A stretch of DNA of 64,000 nucleotides from an uncultured Alphaproteobacteria bacterium (lineage in GTDB: Bacteria; Pseudomonadota; Alphaproteobacteria; CAAHEQ01; UBA3637): NCBI GenBank assembly GCA_949292205.1, contig CASEYR010000004.1, forward strand, positions 1 through 64,000, given 5' to 3'. The notes under the pieces are model-generated. The model worked only from the letters and a program-made list of their open reading frames with translations. It searched no databases and had not been told where the DNA came from. Both the position numbers and the translations under genes were made by a program. Of the stretch, positions 42,380-62,197 are shown one piece after another. Each line of letters starts with the position of its first letter. The first letter of the stretch is position 1.

Positions 42380-42454
42380 GCGGGTGTAGCTCAGGGGTAG
42401 AGCGCGACCTTGCCAAGGTCGATGTCGAGGGTTCAAATCCCTTCGCCCGCTCCA
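42380..42454 (+). tRNA. tRNA-Gly(GCC)
   Basis: 75 nt with CCA. Acceptor GCGGGTG (42380-42386) pairs with CGCCCGC (42444-42450) with one G-T pair; discriminator T and CCA follow. Anticodon arm CGACC-TTGCCAA-GGTCG gives GCC. T loop GGTTCAAATCC is canonical. A possible promoter TTGCTT-17-CATATA lies at 42333-42361. The integrase gene begins 28 nt downstream. Confidence 0.96.
42430..42454 (+). other. Probable attachment site at the tRNA-Gly 3' end
   Basis: Tyrosine integrases encoded immediately downstream of a tRNA usually recombine in the tRNA 3' half, which is restored by the element. The T arm to CCA is the likely core. I did not find a second copy of this segment further right in the window, so the other junction should lie beyond 64000. 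Confidence 0.45.
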
Positions 42455-42482
42455 TTTAAAACAGCTTGTTTTTCAAGCACTT

Positions 42483-44129
42483 ATGAAGAGGATTCCACAA
42501 GAGACGTTGGAATCTTTTCTTTTTGAAAAATATAATCATATCAATAACTTACAAAATCAGGACACTTCAAAAACGCCTATTGAATCACACCACTACGAAA
42601 AGTGTGATGCAAACTGTGATGCACGGGTTCAAAAGTCTGCTCCACATTTATGGTTGCGAAACAATGTTTTTTATTGTAGAATAGAATTACCAAAAGTAGA
42701 TGGAAAACGCAGATATAAACGATTTTCTTTGCATACAAGCAATTATTATGAGGCAAAAACACTGATGGATCAACAACAATACATTGAACACACCGTTTTG
42801 AACGTTCATAAATTATTTGATAAAATGCTGTTAAAGGCTTGGCCAGAAGGAATTGTTAAGCCTAAGGAAACAAAGGAATTTATGGCATTAATTTCTGACT
42901 ATGCATTTGTCCAAAAAATTGCTCCAAAAATTGCCCAAAAAGACTTTAAAAACGTTTCCTGTTGCATGGATACCATATCTGAACATTTTAATACTTTGGA
43001 TCCATTTCAACAAATGCAACTGAATTTAATGCGCCAGATGCTGGATCAATTAGCAGATATAAACAACCAATTAAAGAAAACATCTTTTTCATCAGCAAAT
43101 GTTTTAACTACTGCTTCCCCTAAATACACGCTTGAATATGTTTTATCCATCATGCTTCAGAAAAAAGAGATATGCTTAGAAGAAAAAGTGCGAAAGAAAA
43201 ATACATTGATAAAAATGTTTCAATCGGCAAATCTGACACTAAAAAGCGAATACGATGAATATAATACGCCAGAAAAAATATCCACAATATCTGATTACAT
43301 CCAAAACAGGACGGACTTACAAGGAAATGCCAAACGTAAATATGTTCGTTATTTAGAAGAATTTATGAAAACCGCAAATAAACTACAACCAGAACATTAT
43401 AAATTAAACTTAATGGAATTATTGCCGAACATTAAAAAGACAAGCAAATCAGCCGTTAAACCGCATCTTCCCTATTCTGAAACTCAACTTTTAAATATAT
43501 TTGATCCGAAACATGATTTTTTCAAAGAAAATCCAGATTTATTTTGGATTTGCGCCGTGGCTCTTTTTACCGGAGCTAGAAGAAATGCAGCCAGCACACT
43601 TCAATATAAGGATATTGTCACAAAAGATGGTTTGAACTGTATTCATTTCACAGAAGAAGGAAGCAAAATTAAGCATTTAAAGAATGAAGCATCTGAACGA
43701 TTTGTACCCGTTCATAATCAATTATATGATTTAGGATTTATTGATTTTGTGAATAACAGAAAAAAGCAATTAAAGGCACAAGATTTAGATTTTATATTTC
43801 CAAGATGTAAAACAAAATCAGGCAATTACAGTGATAAATTAATCGTGCGCACATTAACTCAATTTCTTTTGGATATTAAAGTAAAATCAGTTATGAAAGA
43901 TGGATATGATTTTCATTCTTTCCGTAACAATGCCAGTTTGATTATGCAAAAAGCTGGTATTTCAGAATCCTTTATCAACGATATAATTGGGTGGGAAGGC
44001 AAAACAGTTATGTTGCACCACTATTCTAACCATCAATTAGATGAAATTAAATATCAGATGGATTGTTTTGAATATGATTTTTTGAAAGATCACTTTGCAA
44101 AATGGAAAGAAATTATGGCTAAAAAATAA
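42483..44129 (+). CDS. Tyrosine recombinase / integrase
   Basis: A 548-residue integrase, 28 nt after tRNA-Gly. N-terminal region has the DUF6538-like strand pattern (PHLWLRNNVFYCRIELPKVD). The middle (about 215-320) is the SAM-like core-binding domain (TLEYVLSIMLQKKEICLEEK). The catalytic domain shows Arg in ALFTGARRNAASTLQ, HSFRNNAS as the HxxR box, and the nucleophile Tyr in MLHHYSNHQ. It would insert the island into the tRNA 3' end. No Shine-Dalgarno is evident before the ATG. Composition is A+T-rich, unlike the pil genes just upstream. Confidence 0.93.
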   Translation: MKRIPQETLESFLFEKYNHINNLQNQDTSKTPIESHHYEKCDANCDARVQKSAPHLWLRNNVFYCRIELPKVDGKRRYKRFSLHTSNYYEAKTLMDQQQYIEHTVLNVHKLFDKMLLKAWPEGIVKPKETKEFMALISDYAFVQKIAPKIAQKDFKNVSCCMDTISEHFNTLDPFQQMQLNLMRQMLDQLADINNQLKKTSFSSANVLTTASPKYTLEYVLSIMLQKKEICLEEKVRKKNTLIKMFQSANLTLKSEYDEYNTPEKISTISDYIQNRTDLQGNAKRKYVRYLEEFMKTANKLQPEHYKLNLMELLPNIKKTSKSAVKPHLPYSETQLLNIFDPKHDFFKENPDLFWICAVALFTGARRNAASTLQYKDIVTKDGLNCIHFTEEGSKIKHLKNEASERFVPVHNQLYDLGFIDFVNNRKKQLKAQDLDFIFPRCKTKSGNYSDKLIVRTLTQFLLDIKVKSVMKDGYDFHSFRNNASLIMQKAGISESFINDIIGWEGKTVMLHHYSNHQLDEIKYQMDCFEYDFLKDHFAKWKEIMAKK

Positions 44130-44993: not shown

Positions 44994-46190
44994 ATGACTA
45001 ATATCATTAAAAACAAGATTGCAGTAAACTGTAATCAAAAAGAAATTCAACAGATGGCCGTTGGTTCGGATGTTGAAACAATCGGAGAAGGCAGCAATTC
45101 GGCTGTTGATCCACAAAATTTAACAGATTCTGCAGAATCACATCTTTTGAAAGAAATGCCGAAAGTTGATGAAGCAAGCAATGATAATGGGGAACCAACT
45201 CTTCCTCCAACAACACCAGCAGGAGAAATGCCTCTCACGTCTGAATCAGAAGAAGATAAGGCTCTTTCGAAAGAAGAGATTGATAAAGCTGTTTCGGAAT
45301 ATAAACTGCAAAAAATGGTAGTGCTTGTTCCACCTGCAAAATACAGACGGACTAGCAATATATCGGTGAGTGCGTCAATTAAAAGATTACGTTATGAATT
45401 GGCTTTAAAACCATTTCTTTTGTCAATTCCCAAACGTCCAGGGGCGCATCCAGGGAAAGGGATTCCATCTAAAGCTGTTCTTGTTAAAAATTTGTATGGA
45501 CTGAGTCGATATGCCCGTGAACAGATTGAACATCTTGAAGCTGAATGGGTTGAAAAGGCTATTCTGTATGCGCTGGAATATAATGTACCCGCCACAGCCA
45601 CTTTAAGTTTTCGATTAAAAAAGGAATTTGAACAAAAAGCTAGAGAAGCCGAACGCATGGAAAAACAGGCAGAACGAAGCCAAAAATTTGCCCAAAGCGT
45701 TGAAAATTCACGAAAAGCAAATGTGGCAGATGCACATCATGCAGCCATTATTGATTTGACACAAATGCCTGCTAATTGTATTCCCGAAACGTTGACTCTG
45801 CCATTGGCAGAAGATGCTTTGGTTCTTGTAGCAGTAATGCCTGATAAGTTGCTTGATGCGATTGATTTGATCAATAAATGGGGTTTGACATACGTTGATA
45901 ATGTAGTATGGAACCGTGATCGTATTAAAGGTCAATATGTTTGGAGCAAAAACATTCACACCAATATCTTGATTGCGACTAAAGGAAATCTAGATGCGCC
46001 GATTGAATATCTTCGGATGGATTCAAATACGTTTGAACATCAAGAACCAGACCAAAAATGCTTACCGGATTATTATTTCAGTGAAGTAGAAGTGCTTGTG
46101 CCGGGAGGTAAGTATTTAGAGGTCTTTACTGCTCGTCAATACAGCGAGCAATGGTTTTCATATCAAGCGCAAGGAGGGAAAAATGTTTAA
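44994..46190 (+). CDS. MT-A70-like protein lacking the DPPW motif (module 1)
   Basis: A 398-residue protein. Residues 1-100 are acidic and disordered; about 100-205 is a helical, basic region (KRLRYELALKPFLLSIPKRP); 205-245 is a charged coiled coil. The C-terminal ~150 residues resemble MT-A70 adenine methyltransferases: LINKWGLTYVDNVVWNRD, NIHTNILIATKGN, and PGGKYLEVFTAR. The catalytic DPPW position appears as D254-LTQ, so activity as an adenine methyltransferase is doubtful. The stop overlaps the C5 methyltransferase start by 8 nt. A homologue with the same layout is at 59893. Confidence 0.7.
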   Translation: MTNIIKNKIAVNCNQKEIQQMAVGSDVETIGEGSNSAVDPQNLTDSAESHLLKEMPKVDEASNDNGEPTLPPTTPAGEMPLTSESEEDKALSKEEIDKAVSEYKLQKMVVLVPPAKYRRTSNISVSASIKRLRYELALKPFLLSIPKRPGAHPGKGIPSKAVLVKNLYGLSRYAREQIEHLEAEWVEKAILYALEYNVPATATLSFRLKKEFEQKAREAERMEKQAERSQKFAQSVENSRKANVADAHHAAIIDLTQMPANCIPETLTLPLAEDALVLVAVMPDKLLDAIDLINKWGLTYVDNVVWNRDRIKGQYVWSKNIHTNILIATKGNLDAPIEYLRMDSNTFEHQEPDQKCLPDYYFSEVEVLVPGGKYLEVFTARQYSEQWFSYQAQGGKNV

Positions 46191-47301
46191 TCCGCACGAT
46201 TATCAGAACTGCATGTTTATCGCATGCAGTGCCGGAGTTGGTTCAAGTAAACTTCATGATGTTGGTTATAACGTGTCAGCAGCAGTAGAAATTTTGCCGG
46301 AAAGATGGCGTCTTCACCATGATATTTATGGTAAAAATGATGAATGCAAGACGCTACTCTTTGATTTTGCCAAACACATTCCCGAATTGGTTAAAATCTA
46401 TAAAGAACGTCAGTGCCACGGCATAATTTTTACTTTGCCATGTCAACCATTTTCTTTGGCTGGAGGGCAGCATCTTGGGGACTATGAAACATGGTTGTTT
46501 TTGTCTGCTCTGGAATTGTGTCAAATGATTGCAAAAGAAAAAGATGCGGTTTTAGATTTTACCTTCTGGGAAAACGCCCCGTATTTCATCAGTCCAAATC
46601 AAGATAAAATTATTACCGATCGGCTAAATGGGGCGACAATTTTGCAACATATTACAGCGGTCATGAATTCTTTGGGACATGATGTGAATGCAGATAAAAT
46701 TGATGCAAGCCGCTATGGAACGGCACAGGCGCGAGTTCGTGGAATTATCCTCACGCAACGCAATAAGCGATGGGAATTCCCAGCACCAGATGAAAAAGTT
46801 TTGACCGTTCGTGATGCTATTGGATATGGAAAGTATAAGACGCTCGAATCAGGTCAATTCGATCCTGATGAAGAATTCCATCGGATTGGCTATATCAATC
46901 CATTACAAGCAGAATGTATAAGACATACAGCGACTGGATGTGCAGCTATCAACAATCCACCACCGTATAAGTTTGTCAATATTGATGGTAGCTTGTGTCA
47001 AGGTTCGCATACTGGTGTAGCAGGACGGAATGACTGGGATAAACCAGCACACACTATTATACAAGGAAGTGATTCTTTATGTGGTGATTGGACTCTTCAT
47101 CCCGGAAATTTACAGCCGGATGGGACTTATGACAATGCAAGATATTTCTCAGTGGCTGAGATTTTTGCGTTAACCGGTGTTGACAAGCGTTATACGGATG
47201 CAATTCCACCATGGGCCAGAAAGAATGACAAACTTTTGCGTGAAATATGCGGGGAAGCCCTACTTCCCAACTTGGTAAATCGAATCTTTTCCAATCGATA
47301 A
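46183..47301 (+). CDS. C5-cytosine DNA methyltransferase (module 1)
   Basis: A 372-residue Dcm-like enzyme. Catalytic Cys87 lies in FTLPCQPFSLAGG (motif IV); motif VI is represented by WENAPYF instead of the usual ENV; motif VIII is ASRYGTAQARVRGIIL; motif X is GEALLPNLVNRI. Motif I is degenerate (FIACSAGVGSSKL where FxGxGG is usual). It should transfer methyl groups to cytosine in DNA, with a short target-recognition region (about 220-310). No restriction enzyme gene is adjacent. AAGGAGG precedes the ATG, and translation is coupled to the MT-A70-like gene. Confidence 0.85.
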   Translation: MFNPHDYQNCMFIACSAGVGSSKLHDVGYNVSAAVEILPERWRLHHDIYGKNDECKTLLFDFAKHIPELVKIYKERQCHGIIFTLPCQPFSLAGGQHLGDYETWLFLSALELCQMIAKEKDAVLDFTFWENAPYFISPNQDKIITDRLNGATILQHITAVMNSLGHDVNADKIDASRYGTAQARVRGIILTQRNKRWEFPAPDEKVLTVRDAIGYGKYKTLESGQFDPDEEFHRIGYINPLQAECIRHTATGCAAINNPPPYKFVNIDGSLCQGSHTGVAGRNDWDKPAHTIIQGSDSLCGDWTLHPGNLQPDGTYDNARYFSVAEIFALTGVDKRYTDAIPPWARKNDKLLREICGEALLPNLVNRIFSNR

Positions 47302-48857: not shown

Positions 48858-49469
48858 CTAATCCATCAGCTTGTGAATGTCGTATTCGTCATATCCTTCA
48901 TAGTAATAGCTAACGTTGATTCCTTTCATAAAGACTTCTCGGTTCTCTATTTTATTTGTGAGTGCGTTTTTCAAAAGATGTTTAATTTCTATATCCTTAA
49001 TTGGGCTGCGTTCCATGGCTGACAAATAATCATTCTTATCAACCTTGTTCCAATCCACAACTTTTTTGAGTTCCTTTTTTAGGATCAAGTCCAACCAGAT
49101 ACGTGTTGCGCGTCCGTTTCCTTCTCTAAAAGGGTGGGCAATATTCATTTCAACGTACTTTTCCACGATTTCATCAAAAGTTGTCTGTGGCATTTTATCA
49201 ATTTGTTTTAATGATTGGGGCAGATACATAACAGGAGCAAACCTAAAATTCCCTTTTGAAATATTTACATCACGCATTTTACCTGCAAATTCGTAAATAT
49301 CTCCGAACAGGTATTTGTGAATCTGCTTTAAACCTGCAAACGTTCCTACCTTAATCGTATCAATTTTACCACTATCAAACAGTTTCTGAGCTTTTTTCTT
49401 GCTAATTAGTTCTTCCTGCTTGTTCAGTTCAACTTGATTCGTGATGTTCAGTTTATTCTTTAAAACCAT
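48858..49469 (-). CDS. Fic-domain protein (protein AMP-transferase family)
   Basis: A 203-residue protein with the full Fic active-site motif [12 protein letters not shown] (catalytic His112), preceded by the usual [19 protein letters not shown] region. Fic enzymes typically move AMP (sometimes other nucleotide parts) onto target proteins and often act as toxins or effectors. I see no antitoxin helix motif (S/TxxxE-G/N) that I can place confidently, and no separate small antitoxin gene directly adjoining. GGAGA precedes the ATG. It follows a three-gene minus-strand group (50.3-49.5 kb). Confidence 0.88.
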
Positions 49470-50757: not shown

Positions 50758-51060
50758 GTGGATTTAATTAAATTAAGAGCTACGCGACAAAAATCTGTTC
50801 TGGAACAAAATCTTTTAGAAGCGAAACAGGAAGCAAAAAAATTACGAGATTCAATAGCTGAAGCAAAGGATCGTTTGGTAGAGTTGAAGCTTCAAAAACA
50901 ACTGAATATACAGGAAAAAGAGCTTAAACGCAAAGAAGAAGGCCTGTTTTTGGATCAAGCCCGAATAGACGTTGACACCGAGGACGAAATAGACCTCTTA
51001 CGTGGCATTAACGGAATTGAGTTTGATGTATACAAAATTTTTGAGGTAGTAATAAATTAA
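50758..51060 (+). CDS. Small coiled-coil protein
   Basis: About 100 residues. The frame opens with an ATG at 50719, but this lies inside the predicted -10 box; the GTG at 50758, after GAGGAT, is the first plausible start downstream, though not certain. Nearly all of the protein is a charged helix (EAKQEAKKLRDSIAEAKDRL, LQKQLNIQEKELKRKEEG) ending in a short acidic domain. Unknown function; its stop is 29 nt from the converging end of the seven-gene operon. Confidence 0.5.
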   Translation: MDLIKLRATRQKSVLEQNLLEAKQEAKKLRDSIAEAKDRLVELKLQKQLNIQEKELKRKEEGLFLDQARIDVDTEDEIDLLRGINGIEFDVYKIFEVVIN

Positions 51061-51089
51061 CCCCTTTAATATTAATTCTCTATAATACC

Positions 51090-51680
51090 TTAATGGGATT
51101 TTGATTGAATATTTAAGGGAAGTAAATGAACTGAGTGCGTATTTATAATTGTATGAATAGCCCTAATTACTTCTCTATCATTTGAATAAAGGATCCCCTT
51201 TCCTCCAACTTTTTGCCAGGAAATAATGTTTTTTTTCATATCATCAATCAAAAAAGAATCAACCATAGGATCCACAAAATACTTCTTACTGAGTGGTGTC
51301 ACAATAATTTTAGAAGAATCCCGAATTCCTCGAATATTCTGACGAATCCAATTCTCCTTAATTGTTTTTACCCTATCAAAACGAGTTGCATATTCTGGGG
51401 AGGGGCAAAAACCACTTAAAAAATGCACTTCATCAAAATGTTGTGCGCAATAATTATACAGAAAAGATGCATTTTTTGTAGGTTTCATCGTTTTCCAAAA
51501 ATCATCCACACAGTCACAGAAATAAAATAACTTCTGCTGACTAACTTTTTCAGAGCTTGTTAATTCACGATCCGGTCTATCCTTAAAAATATGACTATCC
51601 ACATGGCACATTTCGCGTGCTTGTCTGGAAAAATCAGCTAAAACGCCATCTACATCAAGAAAGCATACTCTTTTCTTCAT
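51090..51680 (-). CDS. HAD-family phosphatase (5'-nucleotidase-like)
   Basis: A 196-residue HAD hydrolase with the nucleophile motif FLDVDGVLADF (Asp8, Asp10) at the N-terminus; VHFLSGF and LSKKYFVDPMVDSFLIDD supply the later motifs. The small size and motif style resemble deoxyribonucleotidase-type HADs. It is the last gene of the operon that starts with argS; the upstream SDR ends 4 nt before its ATG. In a biosynthetic setting it could remove a phosphate added by the kinase of the operon; that is inference. Confidence 0.75.
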   Translation of the reverse strand: MKKRVCFLDVDGVLADFSRQAREMCHVDSHIFKDRPDRELTSSEKVSQQKLFYFCDCVDDFWKTMKPTKNASFLYNYCAQHFDEVHFLSGFCPSPEYATRFDRVKTIKENWIRQNIRGIRDSSKIIVTPLSKKYFVDPMVDSFLIDDMKKNIISWQKVGGKGILYSNDREVIRAIHTIINTHSVHLLPLNIQSKSH

Positions 51681-51684
51681 TATT

Positions 51685-52482
51685 TTAATTATCTATTGAA
51701 TAACCTGGATATTTAATAGATATTCCTCCATCAATATTTATAACTTGACCATTTATATAATCGCTTTCCCCCGATAATAAAAATTCAATTAATTTATTGA
51801 TTTCCATAAAGTTTGCCAATCTCTTATTTGGAATAGAACTCAACTCATTTTTAGTATTCTTTTTAACTTTATATTTATCGAATCCTTTAACTTCCGCTTG
51901 ACTTCCGTAAATATCTACATCCCCATTTATACCGGCCAAACGAATTGTATTACAAATAATTCCTTTATCAGCAAATTCACAAACAACATTTCTAGAAAAT
52001 GCCTCCAAAGCAGCTTTAGAGGCTGAGTACGCTGCACTTTTATGTGAGCCGTATATTGATAAAAGAGAGGAAATATTAACAATATGCAATGGTTGCTCAG
52101 CCAAAATATTTTTCTGAACCAACTTTTTTGTTAAATAAGCAGTTCCTAAATAATTGACGTTCATAATATTTTTCATATTTTCATATGAAAGAGTTGTAAT
52201 ATCGTCTATATTGTCACAGGCAGCACAGTTAATTAATCCGGAAATACCAATATCATTTATTTTTTCAACAAAATCCTCTATCGATTCCTGTTTATTTAAA
52301 TCAAGTACCAATATTTGAAAGTTATTCTCACATTTTTTCAAATGATTAGCTATCAATGGAACATGTTCTGCTTTTTGAACCGTCAATATCATTCTGTAAT
52401 TCCGTTCAAGTAGGAAACTGGCCAATTGCCCCCCAACATTACCTGCCACACCTGTTAGAATAATATATTTTTTATTCATCAT
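51685..52482 (-). CDS. Short-chain dehydrogenase/reductase
   Basis: A 265-residue classical SDR: cofactor motif LTGVAGNVGGQLASFLLE at the N-terminus, NAA-type strand (GLINCAACDN), catalytic Ser in IVNISSLLSIYG and YSASKAA with the Tyr/Lys pair. The end (GQVINIDGGIS) is canonical. Likely an NAD(P)H-dependent ketone or alcohol converting enzyme. Its ATG overlaps the stop of the upstream ligase (ATGA), so it is translationally coupled. Confidence 0.88.
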   Translation of the reverse strand: MMNKKYIILTGVAGNVGGQLASFLLERNYRMILTVQKAEHVPLIANHLKKCENNFQILVLDLNKQESIEDFVEKINDIGISGLINCAACDNIDDITTLSYENMKNIMNVNYLGTAYLTKKLVQKNILAEQPLHIVNISSLLSIYGSHKSAAYSASKAALEAFSRNVVCEFADKGIICNTIRLAGINGDVDIYGSQAEVKGFDKYKVKKNTKNELSSIPNKRLANFMEINKLIEFLLSGESDYINGQVINIDGGISIKYPGYSIDN

Positions 52483-53645
52483 TTTTTCCTTTTTAATTTT
52501 AGAGAATGAAGTAATCCTGAAACATGATCAACAAAAACTGAATCCATCGGAATACTCAATGCATCAGATACTTTCTGTTTAAACTGTTCCTCATAAGACA
52601 GTAATTCTGGATCAAAGAGACGAATATTAACTGTTTTGTTTACCAAATGTTGCACAAGAGCACATTTAAAACCTAATATGTCAGCGATAATTTCCAAAGT
52701 ATCCTTTGGATAGAACCCATTTATTGAAACATCAGAAGAACGTCCAACCAACACTAAACGACCATCTGCATCAAATCGACCAATATCTGTCGTCAAATAA
52801 CAGCTAGATGATTCGTCAATAAATTTTCCATCTAAATCAACATGACGCCCTATATTTGGAGAAAATATTTTAACCATAGGCTTATTTTCTACTGTTTCAA
52901 GCTCAACATGAATTGAATTGTCTACAGGATATCCAACTGTACCTAATGATTTTTTTGATGCTTCTTGATCGAAATGTGTAAGTGAGGCAGTCTCTGTTAA
53001 ACCATATCCCTCATGTAGATCAAATCCTTTTTCTCTGAACATTTTAATTGCTTTGGTACTTAATGGGGCTCCTCCAGAATCAATTAAAATATTCCCATTT
53101 GCTTCAAATTGTTTCTGAGAAAGTATGTCTAAGATAATTGGATTTGCAAGAATAACTGTTTTATCATATTTATTAGCATTTATTCTAATAAAATCACACA
53201 AATCAGCGGGGGGTAAATATCGATATTGAGCGTTATTTCGATTTGCATTCAATATGCCGGCAACAAAACTAAAATTATACGAAGTTGGCATAGAGGAGAG
53301 GATAATGGAATTATTCGTTATATTATATATTTTTTTATACCAATCCAACGTGTAATCTATTTTGAATTTTTCAAATGCAAAAATTCTAGGAGCTTCTGTA
53401 CTGCCGCTTGTCATCATACCTATATAAAAATCATCACTTTTAGTTTGAATTGATGGAACAAATAAGCTTGTACAGTTGTCTGTATAGACCAATCTCAAAT
53501 CTGTTTTATTCTCACTAGATGGGAGTAAAATAAGTTTTTTATTCAAAGATAGAATTTTTAATGCTACAGATGCAAATGTGTTCTGATCTGTTGCTGTCAA
53601 ATAAAATAAGGGGTACTGTTGGATTACTTGTTCAAATTCTGTCAT
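52479..53645 (-). CDS. Compact adenylate-forming (ANL) ligase
   Basis: A 388-residue acyl/aryl/amino-acid adenylating enzyme. Motifs: MMTSGSTEAPRIF (P-loop-like core motif with Glu-Ala in place of Gly-x), LHEGYGLTETASL, and the hinge TTDIGRFDADGRLVLVGRSS. It is shorter than usual ANL ligases (500+ residues): the N-terminal domain is reduced and the C-terminal ~85 residues are compact, so substrate and partner use may be unusual. The start at 53645 follows GAGGAG, 2 nt after the asnB-like stop. No carrier-protein gene is found in the window. Confidence 0.82.
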   Translation of the reverse strand: MTEFEQVIQQYPLFYLTATDQNTFASVALKILSLNKKLILLPSSENKTDLRLVYTDNCTSLFVPSIQTKSDDFYIGMMTSGSTEAPRIFAFEKFKIDYTLDWYKKIYNITNNSIILSSMPTSYNFSFVAGILNANRNNAQYRYLPPADLCDFIRINANKYDKTVILANPIILDILSQKQFEANGNILIDSGGAPLSTKAIKMFREKGFDLHEGYGLTETASLTHFDQEASKKSLGTVGYPVDNSIHVELETVENKPMVKIFSPNIGRHVDLDGKFIDESSSCYLTTDIGRFDADGRLVLVGRSSDVSINGFYPKDTLEIIADILGFKCALVQHLVNKTVNIRLFDPELLSYEEQFKQKVSDALSIPMDSVFVDHVSGLLHSLKLKRKK

Positions 53646-53647
53646 TC

Positions 53648-55393
53648 TCACTCCTCAAAGTTGAAAGTTAATAAAAACTGGTAAATAGCTGCAATTTTCC
53701 AATATAAATCTGAAGGTAAGGCATTATTTTGATTTTTTAAATCCTCCCACAGGTAAGAACTAAAAATTTTGTTCATATAATAAGAATGTGAAATTTTATC
53801 ACTATTGTCATATAAGTATTTCATGATAATCGCATTATAATTTTGCGAAGGGTTAACAAAAGCCTGTTTGCGCCGATTAACAATACCTTCAGGTAAATAT
53901 TCTTTCGCGATTTCTTTAATAATGGATTTTTCTATATTGTTTTCAATTTTTTTATTCCCAGGAAGAGAAAAAGCCATTTCTACAAATTTATAGTCTGTAA
54001 ATGGAACTCTGCATTCCACTGAATTTGCCATTGACATTCTATCTTCTTGCATCAAATTATTCTGTAAATATGTTTTTACCGCCCAAAAAGCAATCGCATT
54101 TAGATGATCTGACAGGTCTGCTTTTTGATAAAAATTTTCTAAACATTTATCCGCCGTATCCAGTAAAAACCTTTCTGATGCAAAATGACTATTATACAGT
54201 TTGTCATTAATTAAATAGTTTTTTAATTGGTAATCCTTTATAAATTTAGGAGTTAAGTTTTGTTGCTGATAATACGGGAAATCATAATAATACCCCAACC
54301 ATACTTCATCAGAGCCCTGACCATTAATAACTATCCTATAACAATTTTGAGCAGCAAATGCATAATTACGGTACATTGAAAAATACACTTTATCCCAGAT
54401 AACCTCTTCCATATGATATGTAGCCTTTTCTAAAAATGGAACAGAAATATCGTCATGAGATACATGAACTGTATTATGGATAATATTTGGATATTTTTTG
54501 ACCACTTCTTGAGCATACTGAAAATCTATATTATTTTCATTTTTATCATATTGAATCGTCATAGAAAAAACAGGTTGCTTGGAATTTTTTGCAACTAAAG
54601 CTGTTAATAATGAACTATCCAACCCTCCAGATAAAAGGGTTGCGCTTTTTGCCACTCCCTGTAGGCGAGATAAAGTTGCTTTTTCTAGCCGACTTAATAT
54701 CTCATCTTTTGAAATATTTTCAGAAATTTGATTTAACGGTGTCCAATATTCACATTTTTTAAAGCCATTTTGTGAAAACTCAATATATTCCCCTGGGTTC
54801 ACATGATAGATATCTTTAAAATAGGTTTCACACTTACTATCCCAAAACCATAGGTATAAGTCTCTAAAAATCTTGTCAATATTAGGTTCTTTAACAATTC
54901 CATAAGGTATTAATCCCTTTACTTCTGATGAAAAATAGATTTTATCATCACAGATTTTATATACCAACTGTTTCACACCTAATCTATCCCTGATCAAAAA
55001 AAGTTTATTTAATCTCTTATCATAAATGGCTAAGGCAAAATCACCCTCTATGTACGATAAAAAATCAATACCAAATTTATCGTATAAAAAAGAAATCACA
55101 TGGGCATCTATAAAAGAATCAGGCATATTGAATTGAAAAATAAGTGATTTATAATTGTAAATTTCCCCATTTAAAGCAATGACAGAATTACTTGTTTCTA
55201 CGGGTTGATTAGAGCGTTCAGAAAAATCCAAAATAGACAATTTTGTATGACCTAGGGCAATATGACAATTTAAATATACTCCTGAAAAGTCTGGGCCTCT
55301 GTGCTTTATTTTATTGAGCCCATTTTTTGTTTGCTCTATTAATTTTTCATTTAGAGGTGCATTAGTATCAAAAATACCCACGATACCACACAT
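53648..55393 (-). CDS. asnB: Asparagine synthase (glutamine-hydrolysing) family
   Basis: A 581-residue two-domain amidotransferase. The N-terminal MCGIVGIFD begins with the nucleophile Cys2 of class II glutaminases (HRGPD and GHTKLSILD follow). The synthase domain has the PP-loop SATLLSGGLDSSLLTAL near residue 250 and DRMSMANSVECRVPF. Such enzymes adenylate a carboxylate and make it an amide; in secondary metabolism they also close rings or make other amides. The Shine-Dalgarno AAAGGAGGTAAG is formed by the last codons of the dehydrogenase gene. Confidence 0.93.
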   Translation of the reverse strand: MCGIVGIFDTNAPLNEKLIEQTKNGLNKIKHRGPDFSGVYLNCHIALGHTKLSILDFSERSNQPVETSNSVIALNGEIYNYKSLIFQFNMPDSFIDAHVISFLYDKFGIDFLSYIEGDFALAIYDKRLNKLFLIRDRLGVKQLVYKICDDKIYFSSEVKGLIPYGIVKEPNIDKIFRDLYLWFWDSKCETYFKDIYHVNPGEYIEFSQNGFKKCEYWTPLNQISENISKDEILSRLEKATLSRLQGVAKSATLLSGGLDSSLLTALVAKNSKQPVFSMTIQYDKNENNIDFQYAQEVVKKYPNIIHNTVHVSHDDISVPFLEKATYHMEEVIWDKVYFSMYRNYAFAAQNCYRIVINGQGSDEVWLGYYYDFPYYQQQNLTPKFIKDYQLKNYLINDKLYNSHFASERFLLDTADKCLENFYQKADLSDHLNAIAFWAVKTYLQNNLMQEDRMSMANSVECRVPFTDYKFVEMAFSLPGNKKIENNIEKSIIKEIAKEYLPEGIVNRRKQAFVNPSQNYNAIIMKYLYDNSDKISHSYYMNKIFSSYLWEDLKNQNNALPSDLYWKIAAIYQFLLTFNFEE

Positions 55394-55394
55394 A

Positions 55395-56417
55395 TTACTT
55401 ACCTCCTTTCAATTTTGAATGTACATAGTCAAGGGCTATATCTAAAACGGAGTGGCTATTTTCTTTTGATTTGTTTAAAAATGAAATCGTTTTATCATAT
55501 ATGATTCCAACTCGCCTATATACATATTCTGGACAATAATTTTCACCCTCACAATCAACATCAATAACACCGCCAGCATTACATAAAAAATCAGGAATGT
55601 AAACAATATTTTTGTCGTAAAGTACTTGCGCTAATGAGGGATTTTCTAATTGATTATTAGCTCCTCCTGCAATGAGTTTCACTTTTAAATCTTGAATATT
55701 ATCCTTTGTGATAGAGTTCCCCAAAGCGCATGGGGACAAAATATCGATTGTCCCTCTATAAACAATATCTGGAGTACATGCAATACATCCCAATTCATCA
55801 ACACTTTTTTGAACTATATCGGGTTGTATATCATATACAAATACATTGGCTTGTTCTGAACGTAATAATTTTACAAAACTATATCCAACTTTTCCTAATC
55901 CCTGTACAAAAACATTTATCCCTTTCAAATTAGGAGTTTTAAATATAACGGAAGAAGCCGCTTTAATAGCCTGGTATACACCAAAAGATGTTGCAGGTAT
56001 TTGTTGCCCCTTATAAAAAACTCCTCGAGCAAATTTTGTGTATTGTCTTAAAAAGTCCATATCCTTAACTGTTGTATTAACGTCATCTGCCGTATAGTAC
56101 TCTCCATTAATATAATTGAGAACATCCGCAAATTCCCTAAAAATTTCATTTCTCGATTTTTGATGGTTCCATTGATAAATAAGGGCTTTTCCACCACCAA
56201 ATGGTAAATCGACAACAGCATTTTTATATGTCATTGCTTTTGCCAATCGAGCAACGTGGTGAAGGGCCTCTTTTTCATCTAAAAATTCAAGCATCCTACA
56301 ACCGCCCAATGCAGGCCCCAAGGTCACATCATCAATAACGACAAATAGCCTCACATTTTCAGAAGTATATGAAATTGCCTTATAAAAATTATCATTTTGA
56401 ATAACTTTCAATACCAT
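55395..56417 (-). CDS. Leucine/phenylalanine/valine-type amino-acid dehydrogenase
   Basis: About 340 residues from the ATG at 56417, which has GGAG 6 nt upstream; an ATG 3 nt earlier is equally possible. Family motifs: DDVTLGPALGGCRML, AKAMTYKNAVVDLPFGGGKA with substrate and catalytic Lys, and the NAD site VFVQGLGKVGY. The first N-terminal residues are typical of leucine dehydrogenase (short form, no hexamer tail of GDH). The reaction is reversible oxidative deamination of a branched or aromatic amino acid. The start overlaps the end of the kinase gene by about 26 nt. Confidence 0.88.
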   Translation of the reverse strand: MVLKVIQNDNFYKAISYTSENVRLFVVIDDVTLGPALGGCRMLEFLDEKEALHHVARLAKAMTYKNAVVDLPFGGGKALIYQWNHQKSRNEIFREFADVLNYINGEYYTADDVNTTVKDMDFLRQYTKFARGVFYKGQQIPATSFGVYQAIKAASSVIFKTPNLKGINVFVQGLGKVGYSFVKLLRSEQANVFVYDIQPDIVQKSVDELGCIACTPDIVYRGTIDILSPCALGNSITKDNIQDLKVKLIAGGANNQLENPSLAQVLYDKNIVYIPDFLCNAGGVIDVDCEGENYCPEYVYRRVGIIYDKTISFLNKSKENSHSVLDIALDYVHSKLKGGK

Positions 56418-57297
56418 CATCTTCTCCACTATGTGTTTTAGTTTGATTAAAAGTTAATTCAAATAAATCAAATAATGTTTTCAGTGTATCAGCTTCCTTA
56501 TCACAATCCTTTTGAAGTGTGTTTTTTAATGTGTTCAGACGCAATAATATATCCTCTTTGTTCAAAAGAATACCATTTCTTTCCTTATGTAGAGTTTCAA
56601 CAACGCCCTTTTTAAAGTCAATTAATTCTGGCAATGAATCTCGGATTTTTCCTCTCTTGCAGAACTTAAAGGAATCAGCCAATGAGTCCCTTTCGATACA
56701 GTTAAGTGTACGTTCGAATCCTTCATTTGCTAAAGCATGGAAAGAAGCATCTATAAAATGGAGAGCATCCGCTTCATTTAACAGTTGTTCCTCATAACGT
56801 TCTACGGCACTCAAAAGGCTTATTATCAAAGGAACCACCAATACATACACGCCAATATGATAATTTTGTTCTTTTGCGTTTTTTATGACAAAGTTACAGA
56901 TAAAGTCGGTATCTCTTAACGTTCCAACATAAATAACGTTTTTCCCTTTTTCAAAGGCATTCACAAGAATATCTTCTTCCAAATCAAATAAAAAGCTATT
57001 TGTTAAGATAATAAAGTCTTTGCGATACTGTTTAACCTTATCATAGTCGGGATGATAACGACGATAGTTATCAATATCGACAACAACAAATTTTTCATCC
57101 GGATAATCCTGAAAAATTCTCTGAATAAGAGCTGTTTTCCCTGAACCCGGTTGACCTGAAGCAAAAATTAGTTTTGGATTTGATGAATTTGGAACTGAAT
57201 CAACGTGTTCTAGAACAATTTTTTCCAAACGAGCTTGGTATTCCTGGCCACGTTTTTTTCTTGTAACAGAAAAAAGTTCCTTTAATTCATCATTCAT
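56392..57297 (-). CDS. Zeta-toxin-like P-loop kinase
   Basis: A 301-residue kinase with Walker A GQPGSGKT at residues 48-55, the zeta-type block VVVDIDNYRRYHPDYDK (Asp74/76, Arg79-80, His82) and the VGTLRDTDF segment near 124-131, matching zeta toxins' substrate Arg loop. Zeta toxins phosphorylate UDP-GlcNAc; relatives phosphorylate antibiotics and other small molecules. No epsilon antitoxin gene is present; instead it overlaps argS by 8 nt and the dehydrogenase by ~26 nt, which argues for an enzyme in a pathway rather than a toxin. Confidence 0.8.
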   Translation of the reverse strand: MNDELKELFSVTRKKRGQEYQARLEKIVLEHVDSVPNSSNPKLIFASGQPGSGKTALIQRIFQDYPDEKFVVVDIDNYRRYHPDYDKVKQYRKDFIILTNSFLFDLEEDILVNAFEKGKNVIYVGTLRDTDFICNFVIKNAKEQNYHIGVYVLVVPLIISLLSAVERYEEQLLNEADALHFIDASFHALANEGFERTLNCIERDSLADSFKFCKRGKIRDSLPELIDFKKGVVETLHKERNGILLNKEDILLRLNTLKNTLQKDCDKEADTLKTLFDLFELTFNQTKTHSGEDDGIESYSK

Positions 57298-59104
57298 ATT
57301 GCCTCATTTTTGCTTGGAGTATTTTTTTTTCTACCCCTTTATCTAGAACGTATTCCATCTTTTTCTGAGGAGTTACCCCCAGTGTTTTAAGGCCATTAGA
57401 CAGGGTATTCTGTACAGCACGAATTAAAACCATATTACGTTCGGTGGCAGGACGGTTCGCTTTATCCACAAAACGCACACCAGCCTTAGCACCCATTGTC
57501 CATAAAGAGTGGAATTCTTTCGACAATTCTTCCAAGTATGACACAATCAAATGAGGTGCTCTTGATTGACCCGCGGCTTCAACAACTGCCGGATAGGCCG
57601 CGACTGTTCGGACCAGATTTCGTTCAGCTTCATTTGCTCCTTTGAGGAAGGAAGTCTTAGAAGCATCGATTTTATCTGCAGAATCCCCAAAAGTTTCCTT
57701 ATATGAGCGCATAACAGAATTAGAACGTGCAAAAGCGTATTGGATGTAAAAGACAGGGTTATCTTTTGTTTTTTCTTTTGCTTTTGACAAATCAAAATTC
57801 ATTTGTGTATTAGCACTCTTTGTTAACATGGAAAGTCTGAAGGCATCCGCATTGATTTCCTGTAAAATATCAGAGGAAAGAACAAAGTTACCAGCTCTCT
57901 TAGACATTCTGAAGGGTTTCCCATCCTTTTCCAAATTAACGATCTGGCATAAATCCGCCTCTAAATCAACTTGGCCATCTGTGACCGCATGAATGGCTGA
58001 TTGCATACGCTTAACATAACCGCCATGATCCGCTCCCCAAACGTCAATTTGTTTTTTAAATCCTCTTTTAAATTTGTCATAATGGTACGCAATATCTGAG
58101 GCAAAATAAGTTGTTGTTCCATCAGAACGCGCAATCACACGATCGGAATCATCCCCAAATTCTTTTGATTTGAATAAAAGTTGTGGTTTACTTTCCCATT
58201 CTTCCGTCTCTGTTTCACCTTGAGGTTTATCCAAAATACCTTGGTACAAGAGGCCTTTCTTTTGCATTAAGGCAAGAACCTTTTCCAAATTCTTGTTTTC
58301 AATTAAGGATTTTTCTGACGTGTAAACATCAAATGTAATTCCTAAATCCTTCAGGTTGCTTTTAATTAAATCCATCATTGAAGAAATAGCAAAAGCCTTT
58401 AAATAAGCTTCACGTTCTTCTTTCGGGGCTTTTAACCACTTATCACCATCTTGTTCTCTCAACTTTTGGGCAACTGGGAGTAAGTAATCACCAGGATATT
58501 GTCCTTCCGGCATTTTTTCCCCTTTATGACGACCAAAAAGTTCTTCATAACGCCAGAAAAGTGAATTACCTAAAACACCCACTTGATGTCCATAATCGTT
58601 GATATAATATTCGGTTGTGACATCATAGCCATTTTTCTTTAATAAACGGGAAAGGACATCCCCAAAAATAGCACCTCTTGTATGGCCCACATGCAAAGGT
58701 CCTGTCGGATTTGCAGATAAGAATTCTACATTTACCTTTTCGCCTTCTCCAATTTTAGAATCACCGTAGTGATCGCCTTCTGTAATGGCAGATCTTAATG
58801 CCTTTTCCCAAACTTCATCAGACAATTTGACATTAATGAAACCAGGGCCCGCGATGGTCACATCCGACATTTCAGAACGTTTTTTTAAGGCATCAGAAAT
58901 TGTAAGTGCCAACATCCTGGGATTTGTTCTAAACTGACGAGCAATAAACATTGCCGCATTTGTCGCATAATCCCCGAAATTTCGGTTGGCTGGAACCTCT
59001 ACCTTTATACTTGAAAGCCAATCCCCTTCAGGAAGTTTCCCTTCCTTCTGTAATTGCGCTAGTGTTTCTTGTATAACAGAACCCATTTCTGATTGTAAAT
59101 TCAT
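57290..59104 (-). CDS. argS: Arginyl-tRNA synthetase
   Basis: A 604-residue class I aminoacyl-tRNA synthetase that charges tRNA-Arg. The N-terminal tRNA D-loop-binding domain (1-~115) leads to the HIGH-like HVGHTRG motif (ANPTGPLHVGHTRGAIFGD), with KMSK seen as FRMSKRAGN near residue 400, and a DALR anticodon-binding domain from about 470. AAGGAGG precedes the ATG. It stands inside the mobile island as first gene of a seven-gene overlapping operon, away from any normal argS neighbours, and has a C-terminal extension of about 20 residues (EKKILQAKMRQYE). It may be a second, inhibitor-resistant copy. Confidence 0.93.
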   Translation of the reverse strand: MNLQSEMGSVIQETLAQLQKEGKLPEGDWLSSIKVEVPANRNFGDYATNAAMFIARQFRTNPRMLALTISDALKKRSEMSDVTIAGPGFINVKLSDEVWEKALRSAITEGDHYGDSKIGEGEKVNVEFLSANPTGPLHVGHTRGAIFGDVLSRLLKKNGYDVTTEYYINDYGHQVGVLGNSLFWRYEELFGRHKGEKMPEGQYPGDYLLPVAQKLREQDGDKWLKAPKEEREAYLKAFAISSMMDLIKSNLKDLGITFDVYTSEKSLIENKNLEKVLALMQKKGLLYQGILDKPQGETETEEWESKPQLLFKSKEFGDDSDRVIARSDGTTTYFASDIAYHYDKFKRGFKKQIDVWGADHGGYVKRMQSAIHAVTDGQVDLEADLCQIVNLEKDGKPFRMSKRAGNFVLSSDILQEINADAFRLSMLTKSANTQMNFDLSKAKEKTKDNPVFYIQYAFARSNSVMRSYKETFGDSADKIDASKTSFLKGANEAERNLVRTVAAYPAVVEAAGQSRAPHLIVSYLEELSKEFHSLWTMGAKAGVRFVDKANRPATERNMVLIRAVQNTLSNGLKTLGVTPQKKMEYVLDKGVEKKILQAKMRQYE

Positions 59105-59137
59105 ACAAAAGCCTCCTTAATTCATGAGCTGGCCCAT

Positions 59138-59166
59138 ATTATACCATGAAAATGGAAAAAAGTCAA
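59138..59166 (-). promoter_or_regulatory. Promoter of the argS operon
   Basis: Minus strand TTGACT (59166-59161), 17 nt, TATAAT (59143-59138). A near-consensus promoter with a short leader before argS. Confidence 0.8.
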
Positions 59167-59254
59167 CAAAAGTTTATTAATATTGATATGTTCATTCAAA
59201 TCTCACTTGAATTTTATGAGGATTCTTGTTAATCTATTCAGTAGGAGGGATCTT

Positions 59255-59400
59255 ATGGCTTATATAGTTAAAATTGGAAATGATATTCATACTGCGGATA
59301 TTGATGCTTATTACCCATCACTTGGATTTGGACTCTATAACGCTAAAGATTGGGAAAAAGTACGTGAACGATCAACCTTCATCGTTCAGGTTTTGGATAG
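59255..59400 (+). pseudogene. Truncated small ORF, broken at the junction near 59400
   Basis: MAYIVKIGNDIHTADIDAYY and on, from an ATG with TAGGAGGG upstream, reads sensibly for about 48 residues up to STFIVQVLD, then continues into what is antisense of a methyltransferase gene and stops at 59470. The natural C-terminus has therefore been lost by a rearrangement. Family not recognised. Confidence 0.55.
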
Positions 59401-59591
59401 ATACATTTCACTTGCCCAGCATAAAATGGTAGCAATGCCTTTAATGCTTCTAAATTATCACCTTGGATAATCATATTTTCAGTGTTTTTATCTCCATATC
59501 CAAGTTCAGATACTTCCTCTAATAGTTTATAGGGAGTTTTGGCCGCAGTTTTTAACGCTTCTTCACGTCCTAACCAATTCAATATAGGCAT
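59400..59591 (-). pseudogene. Broken type III (Mod) DNA methyltransferase, N-terminal piece
   Basis: From the ATG at 59591: MPILNWLGREEALKTAAKTP, VSELGYGDKNTENMIIQGDN, and ALKALLPFYAGQVKCIY. This is the well-known N-terminus of type III-like site-specific methyltransferases, where IDPPYNT with the catalytic DPPY normally follows KCIY. Here homology ends right at KCIY, after which six unrelated residues lead to a stop. Only about 65 of ~600 residues remain; no Res gene is present. The break joins it tail-to-tail to the truncated plus-strand ORF. Confidence 0.8.
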
Positions 59592-59801: not shown

Positions 59802-59892
59802 AAATATTAAAGGGGGTTCATAACTGATAAACTAGTGCTTGTCAGCCGGGCGAGTGGTTCGAACGGTAAAAATTAAAACGAAAGGAAATAAA

Positions 59893-61053
59893 ATGACAAA
59901 CACAAATTTAGCTGAAAAATTAACTGAAACAACTATTGGTACGCCTCAAGAATTAGGTATGGATAAACTGGAACAATCTATTAAGGATGTAGCCAAGGAA
60001 ATTGAGGCAAAATATATAGAAATAAAGAAATTGCAAGCTGCCAATGATAATACTGAAATTGATCCAAATAATCCCGATGACCCTAATCAAATGAATCTAT
60101 TGAATGACTTTAACAATATCGATGAAAAAGTTAAGTCTTGTTTGAATACGATTAAGGAAAAAGGATTGTCGCCAGAAGAGTATGAAAAGAAATTTAATGA
60201 AACGTTTACTGTGGCTGAAAATTACTTGCGTTATGAATTAGAGATTTCCAATGTATTTAAGTCATTGCCAACAATGAAGGGCTTCAGATCCGATTTAACA
60301 GATGATGAAAATCAGCCACACACCAAAAAACAATATATTGAAACTGTTTATGGAATTCCTTATAAGACAGCATGGAGAATATCAAAACTAACAGAAAAAA
60401 ATGTGAATGATACGATTAGTTATGCTCGTGCGGCGAAAATGTTACCGACAACGGGGCTTGTGTTACGATTAGAAAAGTATTATTCAGAATCTTCTATAAC
60501 AGGGCAAAACAGTAATCCCCAAAAATCACCCCCAAAAGTAAAGAAAAAATCTGATAGTGATAAAATACAACAGGGTATTGATAATTTTAATGCTATTCAC
60601 GATTTGGCACCATTATCAGATCCAGATGCTACTTATAATATTATATATGCTGATCCTTCTGTAACTAAATATACGTTGGATGAATTAAAACAATATCATA
60701 TTCCTGCCTCTGAGAATAGTATTTTGTTTTTATGGACTCCTGTTTCTAAATTAAAAGAAATGCTTGAATTATTGGATGTTTGGGGATTTTCATATTCAGA
60801 ATCTGCAGTATGGGACAGAATGGATCAATCTCATCCCGGCACATACTTTAAGAACCAACATGATATTTTATTAGTGGGGGCAAAAGGTAATGGATTAAAA
60901 CCTCTGTCTAGGGAAAAATCTATTTGTCGTCTTAAATTAAAGGATGGTGAAATAAAACCAAATTATTATACTGAGATCCTTAAAATAATGTTCCCAGGCC
61001 AAAATTATTTCGATTTATTTGCTAATCCAACCAGTGTAACAGATGTGGAATAG
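59893..61053 (+). CDS. MT-A70-like protein lacking DPPW (module 2)
   Basis: A 386-residue protein; the ATG at 59893 follows GAAAGGAAA, and the in-frame ATG at 59839 is rejected. N-terminal ~150 residues are acidic and helical (QSIKDVAKEIEAKYIEIKKL), 150-210 contains a helix-turn-helix-like part (KQYIETVYGIPYKTAWRISK), and the C-terminal ~135 residues are the MT-A70-like domain (LLDVWGFSYSESAVWDRM, NQHDILLVGAKGN, FPGQNYFDLFANP). The DPPW position reads D254-PSV. It shares layout, and even the residue number of this Asp, with the module 1 protein at 44994. The C5 methyltransferase follows after 10 nt. Confidence 0.7.
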   Translation: MTNTNLAEKLTETTIGTPQELGMDKLEQSIKDVAKEIEAKYIEIKKLQAANDNTEIDPNNPDDPNQMNLLNDFNNIDEKVKSCLNTIKEKGLSPEEYEKKFNETFTVAENYLRYELEISNVFKSLPTMKGFRSDLTDDENQPHTKKQYIETVYGIPYKTAWRISKLTEKNVNDTISYARAAKMLPTTGLVLRLEKYYSESSITGQNSNPQKSPPKVKKKSDSDKIQQGIDNFNAIHDLAPLSDPDATYNIIYADPSVTKYTLDELKQYHIPASENSILFLWTPVSKLKEMLELLDVWGFSYSESAVWDRMDQSHPGTYFKNQHDILLVGAKGNGLKPLSREKSICRLKLKDGEIKPNYYTEILKIMFPGQNYFDLFANPTSVTDVE

Positions 61054-61063
61054 GGGGTGTACT

Positions 61064-62197
61064 ATGGAACAAAAGATTATGAAAAGTATGACTCTCTTTG
61101 CTAATGGCGGGATTGGGGAATATTATCTTAGACCAGAAAAAGACAATAATGGTAACGATGTATTTCCGCTGAGAGTTAAAAATGTGCTAGCAAATGAACT
61201 AATATTTAACCGTTGTCTTTGGTATCAGTCAATCTATCCGTATTGTAATGTTATACCAGGATCTATTGAATCACCTGACGTCTTTAATAAATTAGTGGAA
61301 TTAGGTAACCAAGAACAAATAGAGTTTCTTCAAGCATCTCCACCATGCCAAAAAATAACTATTGCAAATAATAATAAGAACAAAGGAAACGATCCAATAA
61401 ATCGGTTGGTATTATATGCGCTGGATATTATTAGACAAGTACCAACAATTAAAAGAGTCTTGTTTGAGAATGCACAAAACTGGTTTTCATCTTGTCCTGG
61501 TGCTGTTCCTGAGTTAAAAGGTCGCAATATTGGGGAATTTTTATGCGATGAATTAAGAGCTATGGGATTTAAATATATCCATAAAAGGATTCTTAATGCG
61601 GCTGATTTCGGTACTCCACAAAACAGAAAACGGTCTATTCTAATTGCTTCTAAGGATGTGGATTGGGAATGGCCAAAAGAAGAAGATAAAATTTCACTGA
61701 AAACAGCAATATCTCATTTACCTTCTTTGGAAGCCGGAGAGTTTTCTGATATTCCTTTCCATGATGCACCAGTCTGTAGCCCGAAAATTGTTGAAATTAT
61801 GAGGCATACACCAACAGGTAAATCAGCATGGGAGAACACTAATCCATTATATAGACCAACTTTAAAGAATGGTAGAACACCCAAGGAATACTGTTCGGCC
61901 TATTCAAGAAACGATTGGGACAAACCTTGCTGTGCTATCCTTATGAAGTCTAAATCTAACGGTGGTATGAGGTGCTTTCATCCAGGAAACTATAAAGGGA
62001 AAGATGAAAATGGTGATGATATATATTCAGATGCACGTAATTTTACGATAAGAGAATTGTTAATTATATGTGGCCTACCTGAAGATTATCCCACTCCTGA
62101 TTTTGCTGCAAATAATGACCAGTTGATTCGAGACATACTTGGAGAATCGTTTGCACCCCAGTTGGTAAAACGTCTTATTCAAACAATGCCAAAATAG
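61064..62197 (+). CDS. C5-cytosine DNA methyltransferase (module 2)
   Basis: A 377-residue enzyme from the ATG at 61064 (AGGGGG just upstream). Motif I is LFANGGIGE, catalytic Cys95 lies in QASPPCQKITIA, motif VI is LFENAQNWF, motif VIII is ADFGTPQNRKRSILIA and motif X is ILGESFAPQLVKRLI. The block RNDWDKPC and the later SDARNFTIRELLIICGLP match the module 1 enzyme (RNDWDKPA, NARYFSVAEIFALTG). A standard CPG/Dcm-type enzyme has ENV in motif VI; both island enzymes have ENA. No restriction endonuclease gene is adjacent. Confidence 0.85.
   Translation: MEQKIMKSMTLFANGGIGEYYLRPEKDNNGNDVFPLRVKNVLANELIFNRCLWYQSIYPYCNVIPGSIESPDVFNKLVELGNQEQIEFLQASPPCQKITIANNNKNKGNDPINRLVLYALDIIRQVPTIKRVLFENAQNWFSSCPGAVPELKGRNIGEFLCDELRAMGFKYIHKRILNAADFGTPQNRKRSILIASKDVDWEWPKEEDKISLKTAISHLPSLEAGEFSDIPFHDAPVCSPKIVEIMRHTPTGKSAWENTNPLYRPTLKNGRTPKEYCSAYSRNDWDKPCCAILMKSKSNGGMRCFHPGNYKGKDENGDDIYSDARNFTIRELLIICGLPEDYPTPDFAANNDQLIRDILGESFAPQLVKRLIQTMPK

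Follow-up and report, generated by a model that had tools for sequence, protein, structure and literature searches.

A mobile seven-gene operon with an additional arginyl-tRNA synthetase gene in two genera of one alphaproteobacterial order

The operon and its promoter

The stretch of DNA analysed here (the window) comprises bases 1-64,000 of a contig of 65,920 bases from an uncultured alphaproteobacterium. The genome (G000; 1.32 Mb in 26 contigs, 96% completeness) is probably a metagenome-assembled genome (MAG). Seven closely packed open reading frames (ORFs) lie on the minus strand at 51090-59104, in the places and on the strand given by an earlier description of the sequence (the preliminary description), and the families it had named were recovered by profile searches. 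The first gene, argS, encodes an arginyl-tRNA synthetase (ArgRS) and is followed by genes for six other enzymes (Table 1). The preliminary description took them for a small-molecule pathway with ArgRS self-resistance. We found that the seven genes form an 8.3-kb mobile co-directional unit which is present in two genera of one alphaproteobacterial order, and that each host has a second, unrelated ArgRS.

The genes had been described as separated by a few nucleotides or overlapping. In operon order the junctions are -8, -38, +1, -4, -4 and +4 nt, and the longest overlap, between the kinase and dehydrogenase genes, shrinks if a later start is used. The near-consensus promoter also withstood inspection. 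Its sequence is the top-scoring one among the 39 promoter-like sites of the region, a number that is not in excess of shuffled sequences (39 vs 41.7), and its hexamers are unchanged in the second copy of the operon.

Table 1. Positions of the operon genes and of associated features in the window
Feature	Position	Strand	Details
argS: arginyl-tRNA synthetase	57290..59104	-	604 aa; TIGR00456 385.8 bits, cut-off 261.65; HVGH and KMSK signatures
Zeta-toxin-fold kinase	56392..57297	-	301 aa; PF06414 108 bits; residues mapped to 1gvn
ELFV (leucine/phenylalanine/tryptophan-type) amino acid dehydrogenase	55395..56429	-	344 aa from GTG; PF02812 and PF00208
AsnB-type glutamine amidotransferase	53648..55393	-	581 aa; TIGR01536 350 bits; aligned to 1ct9
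Short ANL-superfamily adenylate-forming ligase	52479..53651	-	390 aa; PF00501 54.9 bits, profile 153-352 of 384
Short-chain dehydrogenase/reductase (SDR), FabG-like	51685..52482	-	265 aa; PF13561 110 bits
HAD-type phosphatase, nucleotidase (NT5C)-like	51090..51680	-	196 aa; phrog_2643 60.7 bits; PF06941 19.3 bits, below cut-off 24.8
Promoter-like site TTGACT-17-TATAAT, TG before -10	59138..59166	-	34 bases upstream of argS; 11/12 consensus matches
Conserved mobile block: seven-gene operon and promoter region	50972..59264	-	97.4% identical to G036:C50 1798-10090
N-terminal stub of type III DNA methyltransferase, abutting the block upstream of the operon	59379..59591	-	70 aa; PDLC03644 positions 1-68 of 542, 7.7e-29
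tRNA-Gly(gcc), then integrase (from 42483); likely near end of the island	42380..44129	+	ARAGORN; PF00589; G+C drop

A second copy in another genus

When the window was compared by blastn with G036, a MAG from yak omasum that belongs to a different genus, g12 (Alphaproteobacteria bacterium RGIG9732, record JAGCFA010000017), one alignment of 8,294 columns with 97.4% identity covered all seven genes. Gene order and spacing are identical, with zero insertions or deletions across 8,015 bases, and the flanks of the block are unlike on both sides. The native genes of the two hosts are 44-69% identical (ArgRS 44%, Lgt 69%), compared with 97.4% for the block, and therefore the block was transferred recently between the genera. 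The preliminary description had made its cluster idea depend on whether the six genes following argS occur together elsewhere, and in G036 they do. Chance does not account for the observation, since the order and spacing of the seven genes recur in another genus. Contamination of the MAGs was rejected as the whole explanation because native-looking genes share the contig of the block in both genomes, while misbinning of one contig could still have occurred.

All seven genes are intact in both copies. The ratio of nonsynonymous to synonymous substitution rates (dN/dS) between the copies is below 1 in every gene, at 0.036 for argS and from 0.15 to 0.51 for the other six; with few changes between the copies, the values for single genes are rough.

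The operon of G036 is accompanied by genes for an inorganic pyrophosphatase, an S51 peptidase (PepE-like) and a divergent hexapeptide acetyltransferase (L014 20-1879), of which only the start of the last is common with the window. Farther on (L014 10913-13474) there are consecutive small ORFs with repeated DNA near their 3' ends, of 47 nt (100% identical) and 78 nt (78%), which yield common tails such as SQALAKRREGR and RQRG.

Two types of ArgRS and the origin of argS

Following the preliminary description, a second argS was sought in the genome. One of another type was found on contig C8, its product being 24% identical to the operon ArgRS, and the operon argS is thus not the sole ArgRS gene of its genome. 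G036 likewise has a separate ArgRS of the C8 type (contig C90), unrelated to the operon ArgRS. The C8 type is without KMSK, while the operon type has both HVGH and KMSK. In the congeners G014-G016 the operon ArgRS as query gives only weak matches of the C8 kind, and the C8 type appears from these matches to be the ArgRS of these congeners. The resistance idea had been said to fall if this were the only argS and close relatives kept it in place with the other six genes missing; a second argS exists and the congeners have none of the operon type, and the idea is not refuted on these grounds. Across the order (43 genomes) both types are patchy, with the C8 type in many of the other genomes. In G001, G007 and G011 an operon-like argS adjoins SPOR-like, NagZ-like and Tat-like genes, these names being given by eye from the sequence.

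The nearest relatives of the operon ArgRS are found in g12, the genus of G036, at 55-57% identity, and other alphaproteobacterial ArgRS reach 42-47%. In the tree that the preliminary description had called for, the operon pair and the g12 copies group outside the other alphaproteobacterial ArgRS with a fork support of 82/100; the placement of the root is a matter of drawing, and the row of G030 is chimeric. The G+C content of the operon argS (0.385-0.394) is that of g12 ArgRS genes (0.376-0.398), and the other six operon genes have 0.30-0.34. From these values argS and the six genes probably have different histories and were joined in a g12-like host. At its C-terminus the operon ArgRS has about 20 residues which are absent from its relatives, and the gene overlaps that of the kinase by 8 nt; together the tail and the overlap look like the junction of argS with the six-gene set.

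The strongest rival to a pathway that includes ArgRS starts from the same data. In a host belonging to the genus of G036, six low-G+C genes may have landed immediately 3' of a housekeeping argS and later have been mobilised together with this functional but unrelated gene. That argS has the G+C content and phylogeny of g12 when the six genes do not, that its extended end resembles a junction, and that ArgRS types are often exchanged in the order all agree with such a passenger. On the other hand, argS has stayed whole, with strong purifying selection acting on it, in two hosts which already have an ArgRS, and the upstream neighbours of g12 argS genes are unlike those of the block. We consider a passenger argS unlikely, though by no means negligible.

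The chimeric row in the tree is G030:C17 (L042 5958-7697), a natural chimeric ArgRS that is of the C8 type over its first ~95 residues and of the g12 type thereafter. In the C8-type part 34/41 and 37/47 residues are identical to the native ArgRS of G036, and the switch lies just past the shared motif GPGFIN.

Between the two operon copies, 101 of the 115 differences in argS fall in nt 600-1700, with 85 of those at third positions. The likeliest reading of this distribution is that one copy recombined with another allele about 9% different, both alleles encoding nearly the same protein; such a tract would raise the dS of argS. The operon ArgRS retains 132 of 145 highly conserved positions (~91%), a proportion like that of its relatives, and by this conservation should be active and looks catalytically complete. 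This completeness also suits an ArgRS that acts solely as a biosynthetic supply of Arg-tRNA or arginyl-adenylate, with no role in resistance, for which VlmL, the seryl-tRNA synthetase (SerRS) of valanimycin synthesis, is a precedent (PMC9032320). As none of the seven proteins can be recognised as an aminoacyl-tRNA-dependent transferase, we judge a role in supply alone improbable.

The six other enzymes

The kinase keeps the equivalents of zeta residues K46, D67, E100 and R158, with K54 as the Walker A lysine and D76 as the equivalent of Asp67. In the pairwise alignment V124 stands at the position of zeta Glu116 and H180 at that of Arg171, the latter column being in a weaker part. In zeta, replacement of Glu116 or Arg171 by alanine abolishes toxicity and ATPase activity (PMC6356619). 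With valine and histidine at these essential positions, UDP-N-acetylglucosamine (UNAG) is an unlikely substrate, and from the substitutions the kinase may act on another substrate or be weak. Its neighbours are argS and the dehydrogenase gene, with no small antitoxin gene adjacent. A plain zeta toxin-antitoxin pair was therefore rejected, as both the needed residues and the antitoxin partner are missing. The preliminary description had also offered the kinase as a modifying self-protection enzyme, and this may be so; the kinase appears to have lost residues that activity of zeta requires.

The zeta-toxin fold, and a Fic-type candidate defence protein in the same island, raise the question of a defence or toxin module, in which the kinase would disable a cell target and the other proteins, ArgRS included, would protect against the kinase or shield ArgRS or tRNA-Arg from attack from outside. 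The valine and histidine at the toxicity positions and the lack of an antitoxin gene do not suit such a module, the PADLOC models give none of the operon proteins a meaningful score, and five metabolic enzymes would be left unexplained. We therefore regard it as very improbable.

The AsnB-type protein keeps the glutaminase Cys2 and the SGGLDSS ATP motif. In both operon copies Gln359 occupies the position of Glu348 of Escherichia coli AsnB in the alignment to 1ct9. We take Glu348 to be a catalytic residue of the synthetase site, and its replacement makes an acceptor other than that of AsnB likely. In the dehydrogenase both catalytic lysines and the active-site Asp are kept, MTYKNA, GGGKA and DDVNTT align with solved enzymes, and leucine dehydrogenases are the closest relatives of solved structure. 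For the ligase, the AMP-binding profile scores 54.9 bits against a curated cut-off of 29.9, with a match that begins at profile position 153 of 384. Its best solved relatives are oxalate-CoA and o-succinylbenzoate (OSB)-CoA ligases. As the full-length N-terminal domain is not matched and no NCBIfam model comes near its cut-off, it is assigned at the level of the superfamily only. No Pfam model reaches its cut-off for the HAD protein, whose best relatives are phage 5'-3' deoxyribonucleotidases (phrog_2643), with NT5C just under the cut-off.

As searches of the order brought up no further AsnB or leucine-type dehydrogenase, each of the two could fill a gap, and the genes could be a chance cargo for ordinary amino-acid metabolism (asparagine synthesis, branched-chain amino acid interconversion and translation) in a small-genome gut bacterium. 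We give this hardly any credence. The gene overlaps and the exact conservation of the seven genes indicate one function, AsnB has Gln at the Glu348 position, and the kinase, ANL ligase, SDR and nucleotidase are foreign to such a set.

Searches for further copies

Beyond the order, the searches covered sampled genomes (398 of the phylum; 385 and 190 of the class) or were of a kind that finds close relatives only. Within this scope and the 43 genomes of the order, no copy of the operon besides those in G000 and G036 was found. The dehydrogenase and AsnB are absent from all other genomes of the order that were searched, and the kinase has only partial homologues there (26-35%). The 398 genomes of the phylum samples gave no ligase at 1e-15, one AsnB at 34% and one kinase at 26%, and no independent case of a synthetase together with this pathway. 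In the class sample the homologues of the dehydrogenase were mostly at or below 40% identity over the enzyme, and the short stretches retrieved around the 19 best contained none of the other operon genes. Among genome contigs the ligase was found in G036, along with a chance ANL ligase on a contig with no other operon homologue. Viral contigs held no close relatives of the dehydrogenase, ligase, AsnB, kinase or ArgRS and only distant homologues of the HAD protein; plasmids and phages likewise gave distant homologues only, the best plasmid-borne AsnB being ~30% identical.

The island around the block

The preliminary description placed the operon inside a mobile island, and the setting agrees with this. 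The genes up to ~42 kb are core-like with a G+C content of 0.437, and from the tRNA-Gly gene onward, where the integrase follows, the value is 0.34. The island contains cytosine methylases, MT-A70-like proteins, a Fic protein, a replication-protein-like ORF and a serine recombinase (contig positions 62444-64129). No tRNA-derived repeat or far attachment site was found on the 65,920-base contig. The truncated type III methyltransferase at the edge of the block shows that the operon sits at a rearranged site.

The Fic-domain protein (48858-49469) matches the PADLOC candidate defence family PDC-S04 very strongly, with 354 bits. Two similar gene pairs, each of an MT-A70/type II methyltransferase-like protein followed by a C-5 cytosine methylase, flank the operon at 44994-47301 and 59839-62197.

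Proposed pathway

We propose that the operon encodes a dedicated pathway whose intermediates include an amino or 2-oxo acid, a carboxylate in adenylated form, an amide and a phosphate; in it ArgRS would be a protected target, a supply enzyme, or both. From the gene content we hold this tentatively, as somewhat short of probable. Starting from an amino or 2-oxo acid, the six enzymes would together build a single small molecule. The ELFV dehydrogenase would interconvert the amino acid and the 2-oxo acid, the SDR would reduce a carbonyl, the ANL ligase would adenylate a carboxylate and the AsnB-type enzyme would move the glutamine nitrogen onto a carboxylate. A phosphate would be added by the zeta-fold kinase and removed by the nucleotidase-like HAD protein, so that an intermediate might be held inactive in the cell. 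With less assurance, the product may be a mimic of arginine or of arginyl-adenylate, and translation in the producer may continue by means of the linked ArgRS, which would have come from a rumen alphaproteobacterium in the genus of G036. The operon ArgRS may also supply the pathway, the part that AcmD plays in the ascamycin cluster and AbmK in that of albomycin.

We consider this the best explanation because both hosts carry a different ArgRS elsewhere, because the seven genes moved jointly and are intact in both with dN/dS below 1, because AsnB and the ELFV dehydrogenase have no other detected copy in the order, because the genes overlap under a single promoter, and because there are precedents for the pattern with other synthetases (PMC12945691, PMC9032320). 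That the seven genes are a self-contained mobile unit supports a dedicated pathway, and to that extent the preliminary description is supported. Its other part, self-resistance, and likewise ArgRS-dependent synthesis, are no more than plausible.

Several observations weigh against this proposal. No resistance-like change and no unusual loss at conserved positions is evident in the operon ArgRS. The origin of argS, in composition and phylogeny, is separate from that of the six genes; recruitment of a target gene into a foreign pathway would produce this pattern, but argS may also be a landing site that was carried along, and the mosaic and the composition fit both accounts alike since a recruited target and a landing site look the same. 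In G007 (L044, G007:C27) both ArgRS types occur without the operon dehydrogenase, AsnB or kinase, and the coexistence of two ArgRS is therefore not proof in itself. The two operon copies go back to one recent ancestor, which makes the co-occurrence of the genes a single ancestral event. An exporter is absent from the conserved seven-gene block, and this counts against a secreted antibiotic. The predicted structures of the ligase and the HAD protein, made from two near-identical input sequences, have predicted local distance difference test (pLDDT) values of 35 and 43 and are too poor to use.

In its most specific form, the proposal is that a mobile pathway of rumen Alphaproteobacteria makes a new ArgRS-directed compound, possibly as an inactive phosphate until its release by the HAD protein, and travels with an insensitive ArgRS that was captured from a host in the same order. 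We put this forward with considerable reserve, as an account that is unlikely when taken as a whole.

Significance

A layout of this kind, a spare synthetase beside metabolic enzymes, often marks an antibiotic pathway that guards its maker, although the ArgRS could instead be a passenger. Copies of synthetase genes within clusters have been signposts to antibiotics that act on the alanyl-, seryl-, isoleucyl-, threonyl- and leucyl-tRNA synthetases. No ArgRS in such a cluster was found in the literature searched, where arginyl-tRNA synthetase, biosynthetic gene cluster and self-resistance never appeared jointly in one paper. Should the link be functional, so small an operon would offer a way, open to direct testing, towards a metabolite aimed at ArgRS in bacteria whose genomes are ~1 Mb. 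Were argS no more than a passenger, the block would remain a case of a whole gene set recently transferred between genera, in an order where ArgRS has been exchanged and even rebuilt from two types.

Comparison with known systems

The producers of agrocin 84, mupirocin and borrelidin protect themselves by a second synthetase (PMC9032320). Their targets are leucyl-, isoleucyl- and threonyl-tRNA synthetase, respectively, and their chemistry is, as far as can be told, unrelated to that of the operon. VlmL resembles the operon ArgRS in lying within a pathway operon, where it is a supply enzyme (PMC9032320); the aminoacyl transfer step of valanimycin is known, whereas the operon has no recognisable transferase.

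AcmD, an alanyl-tRNA synthetase (AlaRS), and AbmK, a SerRS, are second synthetases that are encoded in the clusters and serve in biosynthesis as well as in resistance (PMC12945691, PMC9032320). Like the operon, the ascamycin cluster (acm) has a second synthetase in a small-molecule cluster and the housekeeping copy elsewhere (PMC12945691). It differs in having an AlaRS, a Streptomyces host and a nucleoside sulfamate pathway, and the likeness drawn here is that of the synthetase and its placement. In the albomycin cluster (abm) the second synthetase is likewise divergent, and AbmK gives resistance as well as the biosynthetic substrate (PMC9032320). That cluster has a SerRS and a thionucleoside-siderophore pathway, and the resistance of AbmK is demonstrated, while that of the operon ArgRS is putative.

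Among the other enzymes, the operon kinase has the fold of the epsilon-zeta and PezT kinases, with their Walker A lysine and equivalents of Asp67, Glu100 and Arg158, and is unlike them in having Val and His for Glu116 and Arg171 and no adjacent antitoxin. The AsnB-type protein shares the glutaminase Cys2 and the SGGLDSS motif with AsnB asparagine synthetases and with the hydroxyamidotransferase 7ylz, and departs from the asparagine synthetases by Gln359 at the Glu348 position.

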